A stretch of DNA of 64,000 bases from Paraglaciecola hydrolytica (GTDB taxonomy: Bacteria; Pseudomonadota; Gammaproteobacteria; Enterobacterales; Alteromonadaceae), in contig NZ_LSNE01000006.1 of assembly GCF_001565895.1 (NCBI RefSeq), positions 128,965-192,964 on the forward strand, written 5' to 3'. The notes beneath the pieces are model-generated. The model worked only from the letters and a program-made list of their open reading frames with translations, was not told the origin of the DNA and searched no databases. Shown in pieces: positions 6,718 through 30,875 of this stretch (positions are counted from its first letter, which is position 1; each line of letters begins with the position of its first letter). The position numbers and the translations under genes were made by a program.

Positions 6718-7833
6718 TTAACCGCTTTTATAGAGTTCACTAAAGCGTTTGACCATGACAGTTACCTTAAATAAGCGGCTAAATCTTTGCAGGCTAGCTA
6801 TTTCATATTCATTGCGTAATGCTTCATCGTTTACCAGTTTTAAAATAGCCTGAGAAAACTCGGCAGTAGCATCATTGCTGGTGACTATTCCATTTCCTCT
6901 ATCAGCTATTACCTCTTTATTACCTCCCGCATCCGTTACCACACAAGGTTTACCCAGTGACATTGCTTCAAGTAAGGTCATAGAAGTACCTTCACTTAAA
7001 GATGAAAGTAGGTAGATGTCCATCATTGCCAGTAGGGCTTGGGGTTTAGATTCGTAGCCAGTCAAAATAACCTGAGTACTTAAATCCAAGTCCTTGATCA
7101 GTGTCTCAATATTCTGTCTTTCTTCACCATCTCCTACTATCACTAATTTAGCTGCAATACCCGCATCGATAACTTGTTTAAAGGCTTTGAGCATCATAGT
7201 GTGGTTTTTAATCGGGTCGAGCCTCGCAATGGTGCCCAAACATAGTTCATGCTCAGCGATGTGGTATTGTTTTTTCAGCCGAGTGACTTCTTGCTCAGTA
7301 TAAGTTACCGGAGCAATGCCGTTATAAATCACTTCAATGCAATTGCGTGGAATATTTTCATAGATAACTAGCGCATCTTTGGTGGCGGCGGATATCGCGG
7401 TGGTTGCGGTGGTAAAGCGATTTAACACTGGGTTAATCAGTTTACGTTTCCAACTACTACTATCAGGGTAAAAACGCCCGTGCTCGGTAAATATTACTTT
7501 TGTTTTAGTGCCTATTGCAGCCAATACACCATAAATCCATGGGGTGTACTGATGGCAGTGAACCACAGAAATTTTATTGTTTTTGATATGTTGGCGGATT
7601 GTCTTAATTAAACCTAGATCAAAACCAGGCAGCCTGGCATGACTGGTAATACTTATACCTTTGGCGAGTAGGTCGTCGGCAAAGGGACCTAGTGGCGATT
7701 CAATGCAAAAAATACTCATATCAAATAGGCTGCTATCAGAGCCTTCAATAATATTTTTTATCACCATTTCAGTGCCACCTATACGCATGTCATAGGTGAT
7801 ATGCATTACAGATGTTTTCTTGTCTTGGTTCAT
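6718..7833 (-). CDS. Glycosyltransferase family 4, PEP-CTERM/exosortase-locus type
   Basis: This GT-B glycosyltransferase has 371 residues. The N-terminal domain carries the MRIGGTEM glycine loop (residues 16-23) and VVHCHQYTPW. The C-terminal domain has GTIARLDPIKN and the donor motif region EGTSMTLLEAM. The MRIGGTE start and HCHQY pattern resemble the sugar transferases recurrently found with EpsH-type exosortases. Its ATG overlaps the stop of the amidotransferase gene by four bases, making it the last gene of the nine-gene minus-strand run that begins with prsT. It probably adds a sugar to the lipid-linked repeat unit. Confidence 0.87.
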   Translation of the reverse strand: MNQDKKTSVMHITYDMRIGGTEMVIKNIIEGSDSSLFDMSIFCIESPLGPFADDLLAKGISITSHARLPGFDLGLIKTIRQHIKNNKISVVHCHQYTPWIYGVLAAIGTKTKVIFTEHGRFYPDSSSWKRKLINPVLNRFTTATTAISAATKDALVIYENIPRNCIEVIYNGIAPVTYTEQEVTRLKKQYHIAEHELCLGTIARLDPIKNHTMMLKAFKQVIDAGIAAKLVIVGDGEERQNIETLIKDLDLSTQVILTGYESKPQALLAMMDIYLLSSLSEGTSMTLLEAMSLGKPCVVTDAGGNKEVIADRGNGIVTSNDATAEFSQAILKLVNDEALRNEYEIASLQRFSRLFKVTVMVKRFSELYKSG

Positions 7834-9737
7834 AACGGCGAAGCTGCCTCAGGAGCGTTTTGCATGTAACCAAACCACCACATCTGGAACATCAACATAC
7901 TCCACAGCACCGTGGCGTGGTCGGCTTTTTGGCTTTGGTGTTGATCCCATAATTCTTGCACTACATGCATATCAAAAAACTGCTGAATCCCTTGGGATTT
8001 GCTGAACAAATATTCTTCTGCTAAAGCTTTGATTTCTACTCGTAACCAGCTTGCTAAAGGGACCGAGAATCCCATTTTTTTACGGTATAAAATGCCATCG
8101 GGTAACAATGGTTTAAAGGCTTCTTTGAGAATGTATTTCTTTTCGCCTTTATTAAATTTGAGCTGGGAGGGCAGGGTAGCGGCAAACTCTACTATGTCTT
8201 TGTCTAACAGTGGCGCTCGAACTTCTAAGGAGTGAGCCATGCTCATACGATCTACTTTGACTAAAATGCCGCCGGGCAGATAGGTTTTCATATCCGTATA
8301 GAGAATTTTGGATAAGTGATCTGGTCCGTCGGCGCGGGCGTAGGCGTCTAAGGTAAAAGTCGATGGGTGATATTGGCCCAGTGTTTGTTTAGTTTTATCA
8401 CTGGCTAAACGTTGCCACAGTCTGTCATCTATCTGAGCATTGGTCAGGTAAAACCCCATGGCGGGTTCTAGACTTAAACTGGTTAATAAGGTCTTAGCTT
8501 TGCGAAAGAGTGGATACTCACTTTTAGCAAACAGATTGGCGAGCTTAGGAAATATATGTTGGCGAACAATGCGAGGAAATTTTTGTCTTAATCTATTTTC
8601 AATGTCATCGGTGGTATATTTTTCATAACCTGCAAACACTTCATCACCACCATCACCTGCGATGGCAACGGTTACCTGAGCACGGGCTAATTCTGACACA
8701 AAGTAGGTAGGTACTAAGGACGGGTCAGCAAAGGGCTCATCAAAATAACTGACGATTTTTTCTAGATTATCGGCAACGTTCTGATGCACCGTAAACTCAA
8801 AGTGTTCAGTGTGATATTTATCGGCAACTTCTTTTGCGAATTCGGTTTCATTAAATTTTTTATCATCAAAACCAATGGAGCAGGTTTTAACCGGTGTTTG
8901 ACTGTTAAGTGCCATCATGGCCACCACACCGCTGGAATCAATACCACCACTTAAAAATGCACCTAAGGGCACATCACTGACCATACGATCTTTAGTGCGC
9001 TCTGTGGCCAGCTTGAGTAGTTCTGCCGTCAGTTCACTTTCACTTTGGGTGCTAGTTTGTTTAAAACTCACATCCCAGTATTGCTGTATTTCAATGCCTT
9101 GCTCTGAAACCCACATAAAATGGCCGGGTGGTAATTTATGGATATCCGTAAAAATGGTTTTGGGATCAGGAATATATTGATAGGCAAAAAAATCATGCAC
9201 GGCATCTAAACGAATTTCTTTGTTGACATCAGGTAAGGTTAACAGCGCCTTGATCTCTGAAGCAAAGGCAAATTGTTTGGCAGTACGTAAATAATATAAG
9301 GGTTTTTTACCCATTCTGTCGCGGGCAATCAGCAGTTTTTTAGTGTGGGTATCCCACAACGCAAAGGCAAACATGCCGTTGATACTATCCAGCATTTTAA
9401 TCCCGTCACGGGCGTAAAGCGCTAATATGACTTCGGTATCTGAATGGGATTTAAACGGATAGCCAGCTTTGACTAGCTCTTCTCGTGAGGACAAGAAATT
9501 ATAAATTTCACCATTAAAAGCAATAATGTAGCGACCGTCATGTGACACCATAGGCTGTACGCCGAGTTCAGACAAGTCGATGATAGCCAAACGGCGGTGG
9601 GCTAAACCAACAAAGTCATCAAGGTATTCTTTACCGGCATCGGGCCCTCTGTGGATAATGCTCTCGCCCATGCGCTTTAAGGTAGTAAGGTCGCCCATGT
9701 TACCTGCGAAATGCGTAAATCCTGCGATACCACACAT
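7830..9737 (-). CDS. Glutamine-hydrolysing asparagine-synthase-type amidotransferase (exosortase-A-associated)
   Basis: This 635-residue two-domain protein starts MCGIAGF, so the glutaminase nucleophile Cys2 is exposed after Met removal. The N-terminal nucleophile domain spans about 1-200, with RGPD at 30-33 and NGEIYN at 75-80. The ATP-pyrophosphatase loop SGGIDSS is at 263-269. Members of this family in exosortase loci are thought to amidate a sugar acid or amino-acid-bearing glycan rather than make free asparagine; that is inference here. AGGAG lies 11 bases before the ATG. Both domains look complete. Its place between FemAB-like and GT4 genes argues for a glycan-modification role, but true asparagine synthase activity remains possible. 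Confidence 0.9.
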   Translation of the reverse strand: MCGIAGFTHFAGNMGDLTTLKRMGESIIHRGPDAGKEYLDDFVGLAHRRLAIIDLSELGVQPMVSHDGRYIIAFNGEIYNFLSSREELVKAGYPFKSHSDTEVILALYARDGIKMLDSINGMFAFALWDTHTKKLLIARDRMGKKPLYYLRTAKQFAFASEIKALLTLPDVNKEIRLDAVHDFFAYQYIPDPKTIFTDIHKLPPGHFMWVSEQGIEIQQYWDVSFKQTSTQSESELTAELLKLATERTKDRMVSDVPLGAFLSGGIDSSGVVAMMALNSQTPVKTCSIGFDDKKFNETEFAKEVADKYHTEHFEFTVHQNVADNLEKIVSYFDEPFADPSLVPTYFVSELARAQVTVAIAGDGGDEVFAGYEKYTTDDIENRLRQKFPRIVRQHIFPKLANLFAKSEYPLFRKAKTLLTSLSLEPAMGFYLTNAQIDDRLWQRLASDKTKQTLGQYHPSTFTLDAYARADGPDHLSKILYTDMKTYLPGGILVKVDRMSMAHSLEVRAPLLDKDIVEFAATLPSQLKFNKGEKKYILKEAFKPLLPDGILYRKKMGFSVPLASWLRVEIKALAEEYLFSKSQGIQQFFDMHVVQELWDQHQSQKADHATVLWSMLMFQMWWFGYMQNAPEAASPL

Positions 9738-22373: not shown

Positions 22374-23219
22374 TTACTTCTTGAAACGTCTGCTAAATCC
22401 GATACCAACCAAGCCTAAACCTAGTAAAGCTAAACCAGCTGGAGCAGGAACTGGAGGTGGTGGACGTTTATCTAAACCAACTACGATATTATCAAACTCA
22501 CCAGCAACACCACTAGTTTTTACAACAAATTTGTTAAATGATTCTGCAGGGCTGAAGTCTATATTAACATAAACGTTAGAGCCATCACCAGTTTGATCGC
22601 CTGAAGTACCACTATTAGCAGTTAATAACTCTTGACCTGTGATACTTTTAACTAAAACATTATCTGAATAAAATTCAAAGGTATTATAGGTATCAACTGA
22701 ACCCCAGTAAAAGCCTAAATAGTTAATAAATGATCCCGCTAAGCTTGGTACTAAACCACCAATACCTGCTAAAAACCCGGTGTAGTCGATCGATACAGAA
22801 CTTGTGCCTGAACCATTGTTTGTGGTGTAGCCATAACAAGTCGTATCACCTGCTGGCGCAGCTGCAACACTTGCCACACTACCTGTTCTAACACCTAACG
22901 AACCTGCAGGGGCCGCCACAATACCTAGCGGAGAGTTAATTGCACAACCTGTTGAGGCTCCTGCAATATTATAATCAGTGTTATTGTCTGAACCGAAAGG
23001 TTGAACAGCAGTAGCTACATCAAATGTTTCAATAAAATAACCCAGACTTGGATCATTAATCATATTGTCAGCAGGAACAAAGCTACTTGTTTTGTTTGAA
23101 CCATCAGTTGCAGCTTGACCACCGAAACTAATTGTTGCTGCACTTGCTGAACCAGCCATTGCCATTGCAAGTACTAAACTTGCTGAGAACACTTTTGATT
23201 TGTTAAATAAATTTTTCAT
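22374..23219 (-). CDS. PEP-CTERM sorting-domain surface protein
   Basis: The 281-residue precursor has a Sec signal peptide (residues 1-27, cleavage after ASA) and a C-terminal exosortase signal: VPAP at 257-260, a glycine/leucine-rich membrane helix at 261-275, and the basic tail SRRFKK. The usual Pro-Glu-Pro is Pro-Ala-Pro here. Between these lies a beta-rich, Gly/Ser/Thr/Asn-rich body with two Cys residues and the segment GFYWGSVDTYNTF, shared with some exosortase-dependent surface proteins. It would be exported, cleaved by an exosortase and probably linked to or retained with the polysaccharide. AAAGGA precedes the ATG. It has its own sigma-54 promoter and terminator. Confidence 0.9.
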   Translation of the reverse strand: MKNLFNKSKVFSASLVLAMAMAGSASAATISFGGQAATDGSNKTSSFVPADNMINDPSLGYFIETFDVATAVQPFGSDNNTDYNIAGASTGCAINSPLGIVAAPAGSLGVRTGSVASVAAAPAGDTTCYGYTTNNGSGTSSVSIDYTGFLAGIGGLVPSLAGSFINYLGFYWGSVDTYNTFEFYSDNVLVKSITGQELLTANSGTSGDQTGDGSNVYVNIDFSPAESFNKFVVKTSGVAGEFDNIVVGLDKRPPPPVPAPAGLALLGLGLVGIGFSRRFKK

Positions 23220-23409: not shown

Positions 23410-24228
23410 CTAAGCTTTCTTTTTAAATTGGATTTCTATACGTTTTTCGATGTGGTGTAACATTTTTTTAAATCCTGGACTCAAACCTTCCATTAATAAT
23501 TTTCTACTTATGTAATAAGGGGCTCGTTTACCATGATATTCGACAACTGGGCCGACTTGCTGAAATGGTATGCCTACAAAACGTAAGCTGCGTGCAAGTC
23601 TAGGCTCCATCATCACAAAACAGTGATGTATATCATGATGAAGTGTAATCGATGCCGCAGAAAGATATAATCCAACCGCGATAAATGGAAAACACCTTAG
23701 TTCCCTTTCAGAGTAACTATGTTCGTTAATTGCACCTGTTGCAGAGCCACTAAATTTATCCGCAGCACGTTTTCTGAATTGTGCTGGGATGGCTAATCTG
23801 GATATTTCACATATATGTTCTCTGGGAAAATCACTGGGGTGCACACTTTTTTCATCAATTGAGCTAATACAATACTTTTCAATGGGTAACAGTTGTTCTG
23901 CGCTTTGTGTTCTTACAATTCTTACTGTTCCGGCATATGATCCTGTTGGGATATGTTTAATTAAACAATGTGTTGAGTGCCCATCAAAATCATCAGTTTC
24001 TTGAGAGTTGCTTCTTAAGTCTTCAAAGTTTAACTCTTCGCAATATACATTGTGCCTAATCTTATATGACTCTGCTTGAAGTTCAGGAGTAAACGCGACT
24101 ACTGGTTGCAGATATTCTGAAAAATGCTGAGAAATTTGATTAGCTTGTCGGCTCACCACAAAATTCAGCATTTTTTTAATCAATACGCCAATTATGGGTT
24201 TATCTGCATATTTTCTCAGGTTTTTCAT
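23410..24228 (-). CDS. PEP-CTERM/exosortase system-associated acyltransferase
   Basis: The 272-residue protein has the fold of autoinducer-synthase/FeeM-type N-acyl transferases. Visible blocks are ESYKIRHNVYCEELNFE near residues 54-70, the DFDGHSTH turn, TVRIVR near 100, and the EISRLAIP strand near 138. Exosortase loci often carry this type, thought to make an acylated small molecule or acylate a locus component; no substrate is proven. It has no signal peptide. It starts three bases after the stop of the patatin-like gene, whose last codons contain its GTGGAT ribosome-binding region, so the two genes are coupled. Confidence 0.88.
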   Translation of the reverse strand: MKNLRKYADKPIIGVLIKKMLNFVVSRQANQISQHFSEYLQPVVAFTPELQAESYKIRHNVYCEELNFEDLRSNSQETDDFDGHSTHCLIKHIPTGSYAGTVRIVRTQSAEQLLPIEKYCISSIDEKSVHPSDFPREHICEISRLAIPAQFRKRAADKFSGSATGAINEHSYSERELRCFPFIAVGLYLSAASITLHHDIHHCFVMMEPRLARSLRFVGIPFQQVGPVVEYHGKRAPYYISRKLLMEGLSPGFKKMLHHIEKRIEIQFKKKA

Positions 24229-24231
24229 TGC

Positions 24232-25092
24232 TTATGATCCACTAAAACTAACGTTGGGGACATTTTTATCTCTTTTATGATCAGACAAACGTTTAGGTAC
24301 AAACTCCAAAGCTGTCTCATACCCGACTTTAAATAGTTGTTCTTTTTGCTCAAGAGATACATTGAAATCAACCGGAGAAAGTACGCCAGTATTGACTACT
24401 ATAGTATTCTGCCAATGATTGTCGTGCACATATTCTCTTGACATAGCGGTCATAAAAGTTCTTATCAGCATCATCACATATTGCTTAATTGGCAACCAAC
24501 TTTTTTTGAATTTAGGTTCGCTGACTTGATCGCTTTTTAATCTGAAGCAAATAATCTTAGTGCCATCACCGGCCCAATCATTATAAAGCGCATCTTCTGA
24601 TAATATCGCCCCATCAACTAAAATGTGACTTCCATAGCTTTGGAAACTAAAAAAAAGGGGAATTGACATTGAAAACCGAACGGCTTTTGACACTTTTAGT
24701 TTGGGAGAAGTTGTTTTATTAAAAATTACAGGCCCACCACCGTTTACGTCAGTTGCTAATATATGTAAATCTTTTTCGATATCGTCAAATGTGGCTCCAT
24801 TTAACAGTTTATCCATCCACTTTTCGAATTTATCACCAGAACACAATCCGCCCTGAGTAATTAACCTAATAAGAGAAAACCCTCGGAATTCTCTAAAATC
24901 AGTATCTAAGGCTAGCTGTTTTATTTCTTCCAGTGGCATGCCAGAACAGTAAAGCGAAGAAACAATTGATCCGCCAGATACTCCTACTATATGTTTGAAT
25001 TCAATGTTCAGTACATCGAGCGCTTTTAGAATGCCAATATGAGCTGATAATCTAGTTCCTCCCCCTGAAAAAATAGGTACAATTTTACTCAT
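24232..25092 (-). CDS. Patatin-like phospholipase family protein
   Basis: This 286-residue serine lipase has the patatin catalytic parts in order. The oxyanion loop GGGTRLSAH is at 10-18, the nucleophile elbow GVSGG at 37-41 (Ser39), and the catalytic Asp in LVDGAILS is near residue 185. Patatins hydrolyse phospholipid or lysophospholipid acyl chains. There is no signal peptide, so it acts in the cytoplasm or at the inner membrane. It sits directly before the exosortase-associated acyltransferase with a three-base gap, so it may release the fatty acid that the acyltransferase uses. That link is inference. Confidence 0.87.
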   Translation of the reverse strand: MSKIVPIFSGGGTRLSAHIGILKALDVLNIEFKHIVGVSGGSIVSSLYCSGMPLEEIKQLALDTDFREFRGFSLIRLITQGGLCSGDKFEKWMDKLLNGATFDDIEKDLHILATDVNGGGPVIFNKTTSPKLKVSKAVRFSMSIPLFFSFQSYGSHILVDGAILSEDALYNDWAGDGTKIICFRLKSDQVSEPKFKKSWLPIKQYVMMLIRTFMTAMSREYVHDNHWQNTIVVNTGVLSPVDFNVSLEQKEQLFKVGYETALEFVPKRLSDHKRDKNVPNVSFSGS

Positions 25093-27126: not shown

Positions 27127-27903
27127 ATGAGATGTATGTTTAGAACTTTAGTGTTTAGTTTTTTTAAGCTAACAAGTCTAATTTTTATTGTTAGTAATGT
27201 TCATGCTCATTCAATCGAAGCTGTCGTGGCAAAAATTAAACCCTCGGTTGTTGGTGTTGGATTATACGATGCACTTGGTGCGCAAACTCATCAACTGCGA
27301 GGTACTGGTTTTGTGTTTGGTGACGGTAGTTTGGTGGCGACTAACTATCACGTGGTTTCTCACGATTTAGATCCTAAAGTGGTGCAATATCATATCGTGT
27401 TTTCTGGCTCTGGCCGAGCACCCAATATACACAGGGCAGAAATCATTGCCAAAGATCCCATTCATGACCTCGCCATTTTAAAATTGGACACTAAATTAAC
27501 GCCTGTTGTATTAGCTAGCGATGAGATGCTGAATGACGGTGCTGAAGTACTATTAACAGGTTTTCCGATTGGCGCTATCTTAGGGTTATTTCCAGCTACT
27601 CACAGAGGCATTGTCGCTGCATCCAGCCCGGATGTTATCCCCAGTGTTAATTCAAATATGTTGAGTAACAAGTTACTAGAAAAACTCAAAAACCCTTATC
27701 TTATTTATCAACTTGATATAACCGCCTATCCAGGTAATAGCGGTAGTCCTCTCTATAATGCCGATAATGGCGAAGTTGTTGGGGTGTTAAATAAAGTGTT
27801 TATTAAAGAAAGCAAAGAGACAGTGCTTGAAAAACCATCAGGTATTAGTTATGCCATTCCGATAAAGTACCTTAAGGTGCTTGCAAATGGTGCAAATTTA
27901 TAA
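27127..27903 (+). CDS. Secreted trypsin-like serine protease
   Basis: The protein has 258 residues. The frame extends to a TTG at 27091, but ATGs at 27127 or 27136 give a proper signal peptide: Arg residues, a hydrophobic core 8-22, then a VHA cleavage site at 25-27. The chymotrypsin-fold triad is complete: His75 in TNYHVV, Asp114 in HDLAIL and Ser205 in GNSGSP. The HtrA-like motif order is present, but there is no PDZ domain. It is therefore a small periplasmic or secreted protease. It lies just upstream of the twin-arginine-signal protein operon, though a sigma-54 promoter separates them. It could process that protein, but this is only a positional argument. Confidence 0.85.
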   Translation: MRCMFRTLVFSFFKLTSLIFIVSNVHAHSIEAVVAKIKPSVVGVGLYDALGAQTHQLRGTGFVFGDGSLVATNYHVVSHDLDPKVVQYHIVFSGSGRAPNIHRAEIIAKDPIHDLAILKLDTKLTPVVLASDEMLNDGAEVLLTGFPIGAILGLFPATHRGIVAASSPDVIPSVNSNMLSNKLLEKLKNPYLIYQLDITAYPGNSGSPLYNADNGEVVGVLNKVFIKESKETVLEKPSGISYAIPIKYLKVLANGANL

Positions 27904-27995: not shown

Positions 27996-28011
27996 TGGCT
28001 TGTAAATTGCT
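27996..28011 (+). promoter_or_regulatory. Sigma-54 promoter of the Tat-signal/PqqD/HPr-kinase operon
   Basis: TGGCTTGTAAATTGCT matches TGGCACG-N4-TTGCW with two mismatches, both outside the GG and GC dinucleotides, which are exactly ten bases apart. Transcription would start near 28022, giving a leader of about 24 bases with AAGGA before the ATG at 28046. The geometry is what a real RpoN promoter needs. Confidence 0.75.
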
Positions 28012-28045
28012 ATCAAATTAAAGAAGTTAAATTTAAGGAAATAGT

Positions 28046-28636
28046 ATGAATCTTGATAATCCAGACAGCAATGTCCCATCGACAGACGCTAATACCAGCG
28101 TGCGTCGAACATTTCTAAAACGTGCCTCTGCTGGTGCTGTTATTGCTTCAATTCCTGGGCGCTCTGCTTGGGCAACTTCAAATGGCTCTATTGCGGCTTC
28201 TGGGCATGGTTCAAACTTCGATCAAGGTGATTGCACTAAATTATTGGGTGTAACTTCATTTAACAATGATAACTATCGAGGTATGTCGTTTAAACATGTT
28301 TTTGGTGGTAAACCATTTGATAAACATGGAAATCGAGGCGACGATGATTTCACATTTGGTCAAATATTCGATGCATATAACAGCAACAACAATAGCAATA
28401 GCAATAAAAACAAGCGTGGAATAAACAGTGTTAACGTTAGTATGGTTGTTATGTACTTAAACGCAATTAACCATGATAATGGTTCTGGTGTTTTTTACCC
28501 TGTATTAGAGCTTCATCATAATAGTAAATCGGTCTTTGCATCTTTTTTATATAATTCGGCAAAAAATAATGCTGCATCTACTGGTATAACATTGAATAAA
28601 ACAATTAGTGAATATAGTGGCTTTTCGAGTTGCTAA
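28046..28636 (+). CDS. Twin-arginine-signal exported protein of unknown function
   Basis: The 196-residue precursor is not one I recognise. Residues 19-25 (VRRTFLK) match the twin-arginine motif. A hydrophobic stretch and a likely SAWA cleavage site at 40-43 follow, so the protein would be exported folded, perhaps after modification in the cytoplasm. The mature part of about 153 residues is rich in Asn, Ser, Gly and His, with an Asn/Ser/Lys low-complexity run near 112-123. Only two Cys are present, Cys63 and the very last residue Cys196, after Ser194-Ser195. It leads an operon with PqqD-like, HPr-kinase-like and nucleotidyltransferase genes, so it is a candidate substrate for them. AAGGA precedes the ATG. 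Confidence 0.8.
   Translation: MNLDNPDSNVPSTDANTSVRRTFLKRASAGAVIASIPGRSAWATSNGSIAASGHGSNFDQGDCTKLLGVTSFNNDNYRGMSFKHVFGGKPFDKHGNRGDDDFTFGQIFDAYNSNNNSNSNKNKRGINSVNVSMVVMYLNAINHDNGSGVFYPVLELHHNSKSVFASFLYNSAKNNAASTGITLNKTISEYSGFSSC
28379..28413 (+). repeat. Low-complexity AAC/AAT/AGC trinucleotide run in the Tat-protein gene
   Basis: About twelve codons alternate between Asn (AAC, AAT), Ser (AGC) and Lys. They form a short imperfect trinucleotide repeat that encodes an Asn/Ser/Lys linker. Such runs can vary in length between strains by slippage. Confidence 0.6.
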
Positions 28637-28675
28637 ATCACTTATACTTTAAATTTTAGCTTCAATGGTTTTAGT

Positions 28676-28900
28676 TTGAAATACATACTAAATAAAGGAG
28701 TGCTTTGGCACTCCTTTTGTGATCTTTCTGGTTGTGTATTTTTACATTCAATCTCTGGTGAGACATTAAGTGTAAAGTTAAGCGAACTAGAATTAACTCA
28801 ATTGTTATCCACTCCCTCCAAAATAGAATTATCGGAAGAAAATAAATTGGTTGTCGAATCTCTTGTAAACAAGGGATTTATAAAGCTTGGGATAAGTTAA
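28676..28900 (+). CDS. PqqD-family protein of the HPr-kinase-A-type system
   Basis: This 74-residue protein starts with TTG at 28676. The N-terminal pattern KYILNKGVLWHSF and the later ETLSVKLSELE helix start match the PqqD-related peptide chaperones that accompany HPr-kinase-like proteins, so a shorter start is unlikely. No good ribosome-binding site is visible, and translation probably couples to the gene 39 bases upstream. PqqD domains are winged-helix recognition elements that bind a leader or substrate and deliver it to a modifying enzyme. Here the partner would be the kinase that begins three bases downstream. Confidence 0.75.
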   Translation: MKYILNKGVLWHSFCDLSGCVFLHSISGETLSVKLSELELTQLLSTPSKIELSEENKLVVESLVNKGFIKLGIS

Positions 28901-28903
28901 TCG

Positions 28904-29773
28904 ATGCTGAAAAACTACTTATTAGATTTACATCCTTTTTCCTTTTCAGTTAAAACTGATTTACCTCAAGTCATTCAAAATCTATCAACTATCTATGGCA
29001 AACAATTAATACAAAATTTTGAAGAAAGTGCTGATTATCAACTTTCTGTTAAAAAATCCTCTGGGATACGCTCGTTTATTCGACCTCAAGCGCAGTTTTT
29101 TTGTGATCAACTAGAACCCTTTAAACCCTTAAGCTTTCAAAAAGCTTACGCATTTTTGGAATGGGGAATGAATTGGACAGTAGCAGCTAATGAACTACAG
29201 CACGTAATTATCCACTCTGCCGTTTTGGCTAAAGGTAATAAAGCGATATTGTTTCCAGCACCTCCAGGTTCAGGTAAAAGCACGCTGACGGCTTATTTAG
29301 CCCATAACGGTTGGCGTTTGTTTTCAGACGAAATGGCACTCATCGTGCCGTTGACTAAAACGGTAATTCCTTTTGTAAGACCAATATGTTTGAAGAATCA
29401 GTCAATCGATATCGCAAAAAACTTGTTTCCACATGGTAAATTTTCCGACATTGCAAAAGACACTCATAAGGGCGACGTGATCCACCTTTCTCCGCCTGAA
29501 TTAAGCTGGGATAATCAAGTAACACCAGCCGAGTTGGTGGCCGTGGTATTTCCCAATTATCGCGCTAATCAAGACTTACAAATTTATCAGTTAGACAAAA
29601 CCCAAGCCTTTATGCAGTTGGTAGATAATGCTATCAATTACGGGATGTTGCGTGATGTAGCGTTTAAAACCTTAAGCAATATCATTGATGGAGTAAAAAC
29701 CTTCGAAATTTTCCATAATAATTTGCAAGATGTGGCTGATTTTTTACAACAGGAAATTATTGAGAATGCATGA
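28904..29773 (+). CDS. HPr-kinase-related protein, family A
   Basis: The protein has 289 residues. A Walker A loop lies at 120-127 (PPGSGKST), inside the phrase KAILFPAPPGSGKS, and a SDE acidic motif at 141-143 matches the HprK catalytic region. The N-terminal 100 residues are not those of canonical HprK. There is no gene for HPr nearby, and no PTS gene in the window, so the substrate is probably not HPr. The gene follows the PqqD-like gene by three bases and overlaps the nucleotidyltransferase gene by eight. Related HprK-like kinases in lasso-peptide clusters phosphorylate a C-terminal Ser. Whether this one does is inference. Confidence 0.85.
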   Translation: MLKNYLLDLHPFSFSVKTDLPQVIQNLSTIYGKQLIQNFEESADYQLSVKKSSGIRSFIRPQAQFFCDQLEPFKPLSFQKAYAFLEWGMNWTVAANELQHVIIHSAVLAKGNKAILFPAPPGSGKSTLTAYLAHNGWRLFSDEMALIVPLTKTVIPFVRPICLKNQSIDIAKNLFPHGKFSDIAKDTHKGDVIHLSPPELSWDNQVTPAELVAVVFPNYRANQDLQIYQLDKTQAFMQLVDNAINYGMLRDVAFKTLSNIIDGVKTFEIFHNNLQDVADFLQQEIIENA

Positions 29774-30875
29774 TATTTCTGCTGACTTAGTCATTCGAGT
29801 TTATGTCTCACCTGAAAGTGCCACCAAGTTTACTTTTAATCAGTGGCAGAATTTAGTATTAATATTACGCCATCAGCAGTTGCTAGCCTGTTATTCAGCG
29901 CGGTTCAAACAAACGTTTTTTTTTGAGCGCATACCTACACGGATACAACGTCATTTTCTTAATGCGGATATCTTAGCCACAAACCATAAAATGCAGGTTA
30001 AATATGAAGCGGCAGAATTAACTCGTGATCTGTCAGATCAGGGCGGAGAGTTAATTTTTCTTAAAGGTGCGGGTTATACTTTGGCCAATGCTGCTGTTGG
30101 TGAAGGGCGTATTTACAATGATATTGATTTATTGACGGATAAAGAATCGATCGAAGGCGTAGAGAAAAAGATGCGTTTATTGGGGTGGTTAAGCCAAGAA
30201 TTAACCAGCCATGATGAAAAATATTATCGTAAATGGGCGCATGAAATTCCTCCACTAAGACATGGTAAGCGAGGTACTATTGTCGATATTCACCATAACA
30301 TTGTGCCTCTTATTTCTGGCCGGCAGATTCAGCCAAGTTTGTTTATGCAACAAAGCGTAAAAACGCCTGAAGGATTTCAGGTGTTATCCGCACCAGCGAT
30401 GACCTTGCACAGTTTAATTCATTTATTTTTTAATGAAGAAGTCAAAAAGGGTTATAGGGATCTTATTGATATCCATACTTTGATGATGTCGAACAATAAT
30501 AAAGAGTTTTGGTTGGGTTTAATTCGTCTCGCTAAAGAAACAGGTTTTGGCCTGGAGTTGTTTTTAGCCTGTCGTTATTGTCATAGATTTTTGGGCACTC
30601 AAATCCCAGATTATGCAGAGAATGCTATAGCCCAATTCAGACCTTGGAATATTGCTTTTTTGGATTTTATTTATACCAACACCTTACAACCAAATCACCC
30701 TATTTGTCAGCCTAAGTTTTTTGGATTGGCAGAGTTTTTGGTACTGCTCAGAGGGCATTTTCAAAAAATGCCGCTACATATACTGATTTACCATTTATTC
30801 ACCAAAAGCGGCGTGGCAATAATGCAAATGTTATTTGGCAAACATGTGTTTACCAAGCAACTAGATCAACCTTAA
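29766..30875 (+). CDS. Nucleotidyltransferase family protein
   Basis: The start is placed at the ATG of 29766, which overlaps the kinase stop by eight bases; the frame stays open to 29730. The 370-residue product has the beta-polymerase-type nucleotidyltransferase signature. LIFLKGAGYTLAN is followed by GRIYNDIDLLTD, whose DID Asp pair binds metal, near residues 95-125. Helical segments make up the rest. These proteins transfer a nucleotide to protein or small-molecule hydroxyls, and they occur with HprK-like kinases and PqqD-like proteins in modification clusters. It is the last gene of the operon and converges on glcB with overlapping stops. Confidence 0.85.
   Translation: MHDISADLVIRVYVSPESATKFTFNQWQNLVLILRHQQLLACYSARFKQTFFFERIPTRIQRHFLNADILATNHKMQVKYEAAELTRDLSDQGGELIFLKGAGYTLANAAVGEGRIYNDIDLLTDKESIEGVEKKMRLLGWLSQELTSHDEKYYRKWAHEIPPLRHGKRGTIVDIHHNIVPLISGRQIQPSLFMQQSVKTPEGFQVLSAPAMTLHSLIHLFFNEEVKKGYRDLIDIHTLMMSNNNKEFWLGLIRLAKETGFGLELFLACRYCHRFLGTQIPDYAENAIAQFRPWNIAFLDFIYTNTLQPNHPICQPKFFGLAEFLVLLRGHFQKMPLHILIYHLFTKSGVAIMQMLFGKHVFTKQLDQP

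Follow-up and report, generated by a model that had tools for sequence, protein, structure and literature searches.

A Tat-type exported protein with a conserved serine triad as candidate substrate of the HPr-rel-A operon in Paraglaciecola hydrolytica

We analysed a stretch of 64,000 nucleotides from Paraglaciecola hydrolytica (contig NZ_LSNE01000006.1, positions 128,965 to 192,964; hereafter the window), in which four plus-strand open reading frames (ORFs) stand in a row at spacings of 39, 3 and -8 bases: gene 1, encoding an exported protein with a signal of the twin-arginine translocation (Tat) type, and genes for a PqqD-like protein, an HPr-kinase-like (HprK-like) kinase and a nucleotidyltransferase (NTase) (Table 1). 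ORF calling on the window agreed in this layout with a first-pass annotation, made from the letters of the DNA, which had regarded the four genes as a candidate protein-modification system. The kinase/PqqD pair is, as stated there, already a known family (the 'HPr-rel-A system' of NCBIfam), and its exported partner falls into no Pfam or NCBIfam family. From sequence comparison and by analogy with the tailoring of lasso peptides, we favour the reading that the product of gene 1 serves as substrate for the other three proteins, which would modify it at a leader-guided serine triad before export by the Tat route.

Table 1. Features of the operon and its surroundings (positions are those of the window)
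Feature	Position	Strand	Remarks
PEP-CTERM protein	22374-23219	opposite	among the exosortase-system genes of the window
Exosortase acyltransferase	23410-24228	opposite	about 4-6 kb upstream of the operon, with the PEP-CTERM gene
Trypsin-like serine protease, possible processing protease	27136-27903	+	PF13365
Sigma-54-type -24/-12 site TGGCTTGTAAATTGC	27996-28010	+	GG-N10-GC; gene 1 begins soon after, with its ATG at 28046
Gene 1, Tat-type exported protein, candidate substrate	28046-28636	+	196 aa
Twin-arginine signal, residues 20-43 (RR to AWA)	28103-28174	+	conservation of Arg
Serine triad S48-x3-S52-x3-S56, proposed modification site	28187-28213	+	conservation in alignments A1 and A4
Mostly helical mature domain (predicted), residues 61-191, with conserved N139	28226-28618	+	AlphaFold2
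PqqD/RRE-like recognition protein	28676-28900	+	74 aa, TTG start
Terminator-like hairpin AAAGGAGTGC-TTTG-GCACTCCTTT	28694-28717	+	inside the 5' part of the PqqD-like coding sequence
HprK-related kinase A	28904-29773	+	289 aa; TIGR04352
Kinase P-loop PGSGKST	29264-29284	+	invariance in alignment
NTase, PF14907	29766-30875	+	369 aa, counted from the ATG at 29766
NTase D-I-D motif	30120-30128	+	its two Asp kept in 80 and 81 of 81 sequences

The exported protein and the kinase occur together far beyond the window. Three sets of loci were compared: a family set of 85 kinase loci besides the window, drawn from 196 same-family genomes (85 of which carry TIGR04352 above its cut-off), a phylum-wide set of 52 loci belonging to the same phylum but to different families, and a set of 80 named loci. 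By a crude rule with our own hydrophobicity criterion, which missed the window copy itself, scored L204, L226 and L242 as misses although a Tat-like start is visible by eye, and scored at least L230 and L293 as positives through a wrong frame, a Tat-like ORF ending 150-800 bp upstream of the kinase was found in 84/85 family, 43/51 phylum-wide and 71/79 named loci (contig-edge loci L217 and L302 excluded), compared with 97/1206 control regions of equal width from these loci. A profile search recovered a member of the exported-protein family somewhere in the locus in 78/80 named loci, including L277, L282, L293, L294, L295 and L296, which at first look had no upstream Tat gene. When the whole-protein profile was run against the 196 genomes, 87 matches (E<=1e-9) fell in 86 genomes, 85 of them carrying the kinase (counted by eye); in the remaining genome (G156) the match is truncated at a contig end, and weaker matches mostly covered the signal region alone. 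This search is an orphan test and not an independent census, because kinase-linked proteins were the source of the profile. The co-occurrence of the Tat protein with the kinase and PqqD-like genes, on which the first-pass annotation had staked its interpretation, is therefore borne out. Two loci, L282 (5689-7107) and L293 (10017-11546), carry the exported protein in two tandem copies about 1-2 kb downstream of a single kinase gene.

The roles of the three partner proteins are assigned from their families and from precedent. The kinase passed TIGR04352 (293 bits against a cut-off of 200), and its best named match, from Paraglaciecola sp. MB-3u-78, is 82% identical. Its P-loop, previously described as intact, includes five residues (G122, G124, K125, S126 and T127) that are invariant across 39 aligned sequences; the canonical HprK family was absent among the 8 NCBIfam matches, and profile similarity to HprK structures was weak (1jb1, E 0.039). 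The NTase passed PF14907, an uncharacterised NTase family (130.8 bits against a cut-off of 31.2), and its K-G and D-x-D residues are kept in 80 or 81 of 81 sequences, the window included, in agreement with its earlier identification from the D-I-D motif, which we take to bind metal by analogy. At two distant loci (L213:6858-8555 and L184:4362-6623) a TPR-sulfotransferase gene directly follows the kinase in the NTase's place; sulfotransferase genes have been reported in lasso clusters. Among proteins in the position of the PqqD-like protein, 15/69 match TIGR04353 at E<=0.1 (best 4e-17), a model named 'HPr-rel-A system PqqD family peptide chaperone' in NCBIfam, and a profile of 65 sequences matches two lasso leader-binding proteins in PDB, TbiB1 (3.7e-5) and TfuB1 (1.1e-4). 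The AlphaFold model of the protein (mean predicted local distance difference test score, pLDDT, 89.9) has the TbiB1-leader complex as its top Foldseek match (E 0.017, template modelling score, TM, 0.64). By its relatives' profile and its predicted fold, the recognition domain claimed in the first-pass annotation thus belongs to the PqqD/RRE family (RRE, recognition element of ribosomally synthesized and post-translationally modified peptides, RiPPs).

Conservation in the exported protein is concentrated near its N terminus. Two alignments were used: A1, with 83 rows (82 of the 85 family loci and the window; L084 and L117 lack a gene-1 call by a simple gene finder, and L146 appears broken), and A4, with 70 proteins (69 of the 80 named loci and the window; mean column identity 12%), from which nine loci without a Tat-ORF pick, L267 (overlong frame) and L293 (wrong frame) are omitted. 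At L146 both the Tat-protein and the kinase gene look broken, with no Tat start and a shortened kinase ORF. The signal of gene 1, carrying VRRTFLKRASAGAVIASIPGRSAWA, was again judged by eye to be of the twin-arginine type, the NCBIfam TAT model scoring it at 13.2 bits, under its cut-off of 16.7; both Arg are kept in 70/70 proteins of A4 and in 82/83 and 83/83 of A1. Next after Met1 and the two Arg, the best conserved positions of A4 are S48 and S52 (67/70 each), followed by S56, equal to N139 (66/70 each); in A1 the triad positions hold Ser in 81, 76 and 71 rows, and N139 is present in 72. The strict pattern S-x3-S-x3-S is found in the 40-residue triad stretch of 71/82 and 57/70 proteins, in 9/258 and 6/198 stretches of that length elsewhere in these proteins, and in 178/1640 and 107/1400 shuffled stretches. 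AlphaFold2 assigns pLDDT values under 50 to residues 37-55, which include S48 and S52, and predicts a short helix (55-58) that contains S56. The triad stretch is probably mostly disordered, and since this low-scoring region precedes the helical domain, the predicted fold gives little reason for the conservation of the serines. Between gene 1 and its closest named relative, 31/37 residues are identical from RR to S56, against 40% overall and 82% for the kinase, which suggests that leader and triad are constrained and the remainder is not.

The mature part is predicted with ten-residue means of 66-97 across residues 61-190 (10/13 blocks >=83), and the exported protein has no known structural counterpart, either by profile or by fold (best PDB match E 3.1). 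Beyond the sub-threshold Tat signal, gene 1 matched no family of Pfam or NCBIfam, and its 82 family relatives gave only Tat-signal models and isolated weak matches in the same collections. The folded domain (G-C-T-P-G-Y-W-K ... L-L-N-A), for which no Pfam or NCBIfam model was found among the kinase-linked members scanned, also forms the tail of other secreted proteins that do not stand beside a kinase. Such unlinked copies were seen in L323:2490-2840 (minus strand), L325:4702-5091 (plus strand), L327, L329, L333 and L339; viral contigs scanned with one of them yielded no relative. A profile of this domain, built from seven kinase-linked and two unlinked sequences, matched 15/198 genomes spread across the class. 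In 11 of these the kinase lies in the same locus; all 11 proteins have a Tat-type start by eye and 9/11 have the strict triad, the two others retaining S-x3-S with a shifted third Ser. The strict triad is found in 0/6 unlinked relatives (the four remaining profile matches, L323 and L325), and the L323 copy lacks it while having a Tat-like N-terminal stretch. Five of the six genomes with these copies have no TIGR04352 match over the cut-off. The triad therefore appears to track the kinase and not the domain, within a small unlinked sample of six.

The first-pass annotation had placed the modification elsewhere, proposing that the kinase phosphorylates the C-terminal Ser of the exported protein in the manner of paeninodin. 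The window protein does end in Ser-Ser-Cys, as described, and lasso kinases target a C-terminal Ser; this ending, however, occurs in no other protein of the alignments (1/70 in A4 and 1/83 in A1, the window in both cases), a Ser within the last three residues is present in 20/70 and 17/83 proteins, and a Cys within the last 12 in 25/70 and 20/83. Lack of conservation rules out the C-terminal Ser/Cys as a general site in the window's branch, where S48/S52/S56, judged from sequence, are the likelier target. The terminal Cys may have another role. The mature part contains one or more additional Cys in each of the 23 named proteins whose last 12 residues include a single Cys, which would permit a disulfide; but as most other members have Cys too, this is no more than a possibility. 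A distinct C-terminal motif, C-[WFY]-x-S-[FLIM], is present in 36/43 phylum-wide proteins and in 0/84 family and 0/71 named proteins. Phosphorylation of a C-terminal Ser is on these grounds very unlikely for the window protein; since the motif resembles the target of lasso kinases, the idea may nevertheless hold for the phylum-wide type. Of the earlier interpretation, then, the co-occurrence, the lasso precedent and the regulon (see below) stood, and the C-terminal residues as the site did not. Loci L220-L228 of family f45 share a near-fixed C-terminal tail, FTC[FY]ASLQ, in the Tat protein (for L226 judged by eye from a longer reading frame).

On the kinase tree, the C-terminal substrate type needs 12 changes, compared with a mean of 32 (minimum 28) after shuffling, and we conclude that the architecture of the substrate follows the kinase. 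This bears on the possibility that the exported protein is not modified at all and that the enzymes, encoded by merely co-regulated genes, act on a small molecule or on another target in the cell. The kinase and NTase families have here at most a candidate substrate, and polysaccharide and exosortase genes lie close by in the window and in several annotated related loci, both of which would suit such a role; but the operon holds an RRE-type protein, the triad goes with the kinase and is absent from the unlinked domain relatives, and the substrate type follows the kinase tree, so that we regard this alternative as unlikely.

A gene for a trypsin-like protease, which the first-pass account does not mention, directly precedes the operon, and may process the exported protein. 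Counted without a control, loci with a relative of this protease number 56/85 in the family set, 28/80 in the named set and 4/52 in the phylum-wide set, and its distance to the kinase is mostly 1-2 kb. A protease, perhaps this one, could free a short peptide bearing the triad and leave the rest of the protein as a scaffold, as in RiPP systems. Leader and triad are indeed far more conserved than the remainder, and in 51/85 family loci no more than 1.4 kb separates a protease gene from the kinase. The mature part, however, is predicted to be a mostly helical and largely confident domain, N139 and L138 are conserved in most relatives, and 29/85 family, 48/52 phylum-wide and 52/80 named loci have no detected relative of the protease, which together make release of a short peptide quite improbable.

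The promoter with GG-N10-GC spacing read from the sequence in the first pass corresponds to TGGCTTGTAAATTGC, and the window, both strands counted, has no other perfect TGGC-N7-TTGC match. Similar sites (at most one mismatch across the eight fixed bases, with GG and GC retained) precede gene 1 in 71/83 family loci, compared with 73/782 random regions of the same loci, and in 49/70 named loci (95/654 random); the phylum-wide excess is weak (13/42 against 59/387). The likely regulator is PrsR, which acts as sigma-54 activator in the PEP-CTERM system: it was found in 85/85 kinase-bearing genomes of the family sample, compared with 68/111 others, although related genomes are not independent. EpsI (E<=0.001) is present in 80/85 kinase-bearing genomes and 27/111 others, 107 genomes in all at this threshold, of which just 45 pass the EpsI family cut-off. 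With the sigma-54-type site and PrsR, the earlier proposal of a regulon gains support. In the Paraglaciecola genome itself the gene for PrsR is on a different contig (C18), and that for EpsI shares the operon's contig at a distance of about 49 kb. The relevant passages of Haft et al. 2006 (PMC1569441) describe PrsR and PrsK together with a sigma-54 motif that precedes PEP-CTERM genes, and also refer to an activator-binding motif (motif 1) on the upstream side of the sigma-54 site.

A second regulatory element, likewise absent from the first-pass account, is the hairpin after gene 1, where the region 28634-28740 has a fold z-score of -4.0. Hairpins follow gene 1 in 24/84 family loci (13/672 controls), in 11/71 named loci (13/568) and in 1/43 phylum-wide loci (5/344). 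In selected sequences of the window's clade the stem shows compensatory changes (see below). Such a hairpin would favour the substrate over the enzymes, which fits the expectation for a substrate gene.

Taken together, we propose that a sigma-54 promoter, probably driven by PrsR, would transcribe the substrate gene strongly, with the hairpin probably passing part of the transcription on to the enzyme genes. The PqqD-like (RRE-type) protein would bind the N-terminal leader of the substrate in the cytoplasm, the HprK-like kinase would phosphorylate at least one serine of S48/S52/S56, and the NTase would then elaborate the phosphoserine, with a sugar if the pseudomycoidin precedent applies. The modified, folded protein would be exported through Tat and cleaved by signal peptidase near residue 43, so that the tag would end up near the new N terminus, where it might link the protein to a surface polysaccharide. 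In its most far-reaching form, in which the operon is a widespread protein-scale counterpart of lasso tailoring, with the leader as docking site and the triad phosphorylated and glycosylated so that the protein is covalently coupled to the exopolysaccharide of the exosortase locus, the proposal is rather speculative, and we consider it doubtful.

Several observations weigh against the substrate reading. The kinase could act on something else, and the pseudomycoidin NTase, from which the NTase step is drawn, may belong to a family other than PF14907. Taken alone, the 74-aa protein of the window matched no curated model of Pfam or NCBIfam, and the Foldseek match of its predicted structure is modest. 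Two of the 80 named loci (L261 and L292) have no member of the exported-protein family, and because related loci are not independent, the counts overstate the number of events. The genome G590, with an unlinked domain copy, is not kinase-free, having a TIGR04352 match on another contig. The triad is found in just 2/42 of the set with the C-terminal motif, and since it is nearly absent there, one site cannot serve all members; by strict motif rules, 216 loci divide into 132 with the triad, 34 with the C-terminal motif, one with both and 49 that fit neither simple rule. As for the hairpin, 60/84 family loci have none by the rule used. The hairpin alignment A7 comprises 13 window-clade sequences, picked for showing the stem from 34 distinct sequences, and within this selection 95.4% of pair cells are paired and 10 cells are changed on both sides, compared with 2.4 in shuffles (e.g., GTG with CAC, ATG with CAT), while the measure of further pair types is not above shuffles; as the stem is coding in the window clade, its covariation may partly be codon choice.

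Annotated with Pfam and NCBIfam, the surroundings of the operon from 22.4 to 37.2 kb hold exosortase, epimerase, protease, malate synthase, LysR, isocitrate lyase and CheW-type genes, of which malate synthase, LysR and isocitrate-lyase-type genes lie 3' of the operon. A gene for a patatin-like phospholipase (24232-25092) adjoins the exosortase acyltransferase. A role in anti-phage defence was considered and set aside, PADLOC giving no match for any of the four operon proteins.

For the HPr-rel-A enzymes, these results offer a concrete candidate substrate, three candidate residues and a likely regulator, and the gene set recurs in many related bacteria, which could explain an enzyme family with an unclear target. 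New here are the candidate substrate with its serine triad, a second type of substrate, and the hairpin and protease. Neither a paper on the HPr-rel-A system nor a description of an HPr-rel-A substrate was found in the searchable open-access literature, a body of text outside which subscription papers and NCBIfam entry texts lie; PqqD and HPr kinase do appear side by side in three papers on lasso peptides.

The window is a member of the HPr-rel-A system, with a kinase over the TIGR04352 cut-off and an adjacent PqqD-like gene (TIGR04353 through its relatives); the NCBIfam names of these two models, taken alone, make no reference to an exported protein, a promoter, a hairpin or a protease. With the PEP-CTERM/exosortase (EpsH) system and its PrsK/PrsR/PrsT components it shares the sigma-54-type site, exosortase-associated neighbours and the co-occurrence with PrsR and EpsI, but its exported protein has a Tat-type signal and, by model, no PEP-CTERM tail (TIGR02595 was unmatched in gene 1, and the sorting domain is also absent among the families matched by the 83 proteins). 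With the paeninodin and pseudomycoidin lasso clusters it has the same three kinds of parts in common, an RRE of the B1 type, an HprK-like Ser kinase and an NTase. The passages of the review PMC8498205 that treat these clusters describe homologues of HPr kinase that place a phosphate on the C-terminal Ser in precursors of the paeninodin type, and a pseudomycoidin NTase that puts one or two hexoses on the phosphorylated peptide, so the lasso precedent for a kinase with an NTase, invoked in the first pass, is real. Lasso clusters differ in having a short precursor with a C-terminal Ser, whereas the window has a 196-aa Tat-type protein with Ser after the signal peptide, and among the neighbours between 22.4 and 37.2 kb there is no lasso protease or asparagine-synthetase-like cyclase (the nearest scanned Asn_synthase, at 7830-9737, is about 18 kb off). 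By this analogy the operon would work like lasso tailoring while failing the definition of a lasso cluster, and, if true, leader-guided modification of Ser would extend beyond small natural products to Tat-exported surface proteins of polysaccharide producers.

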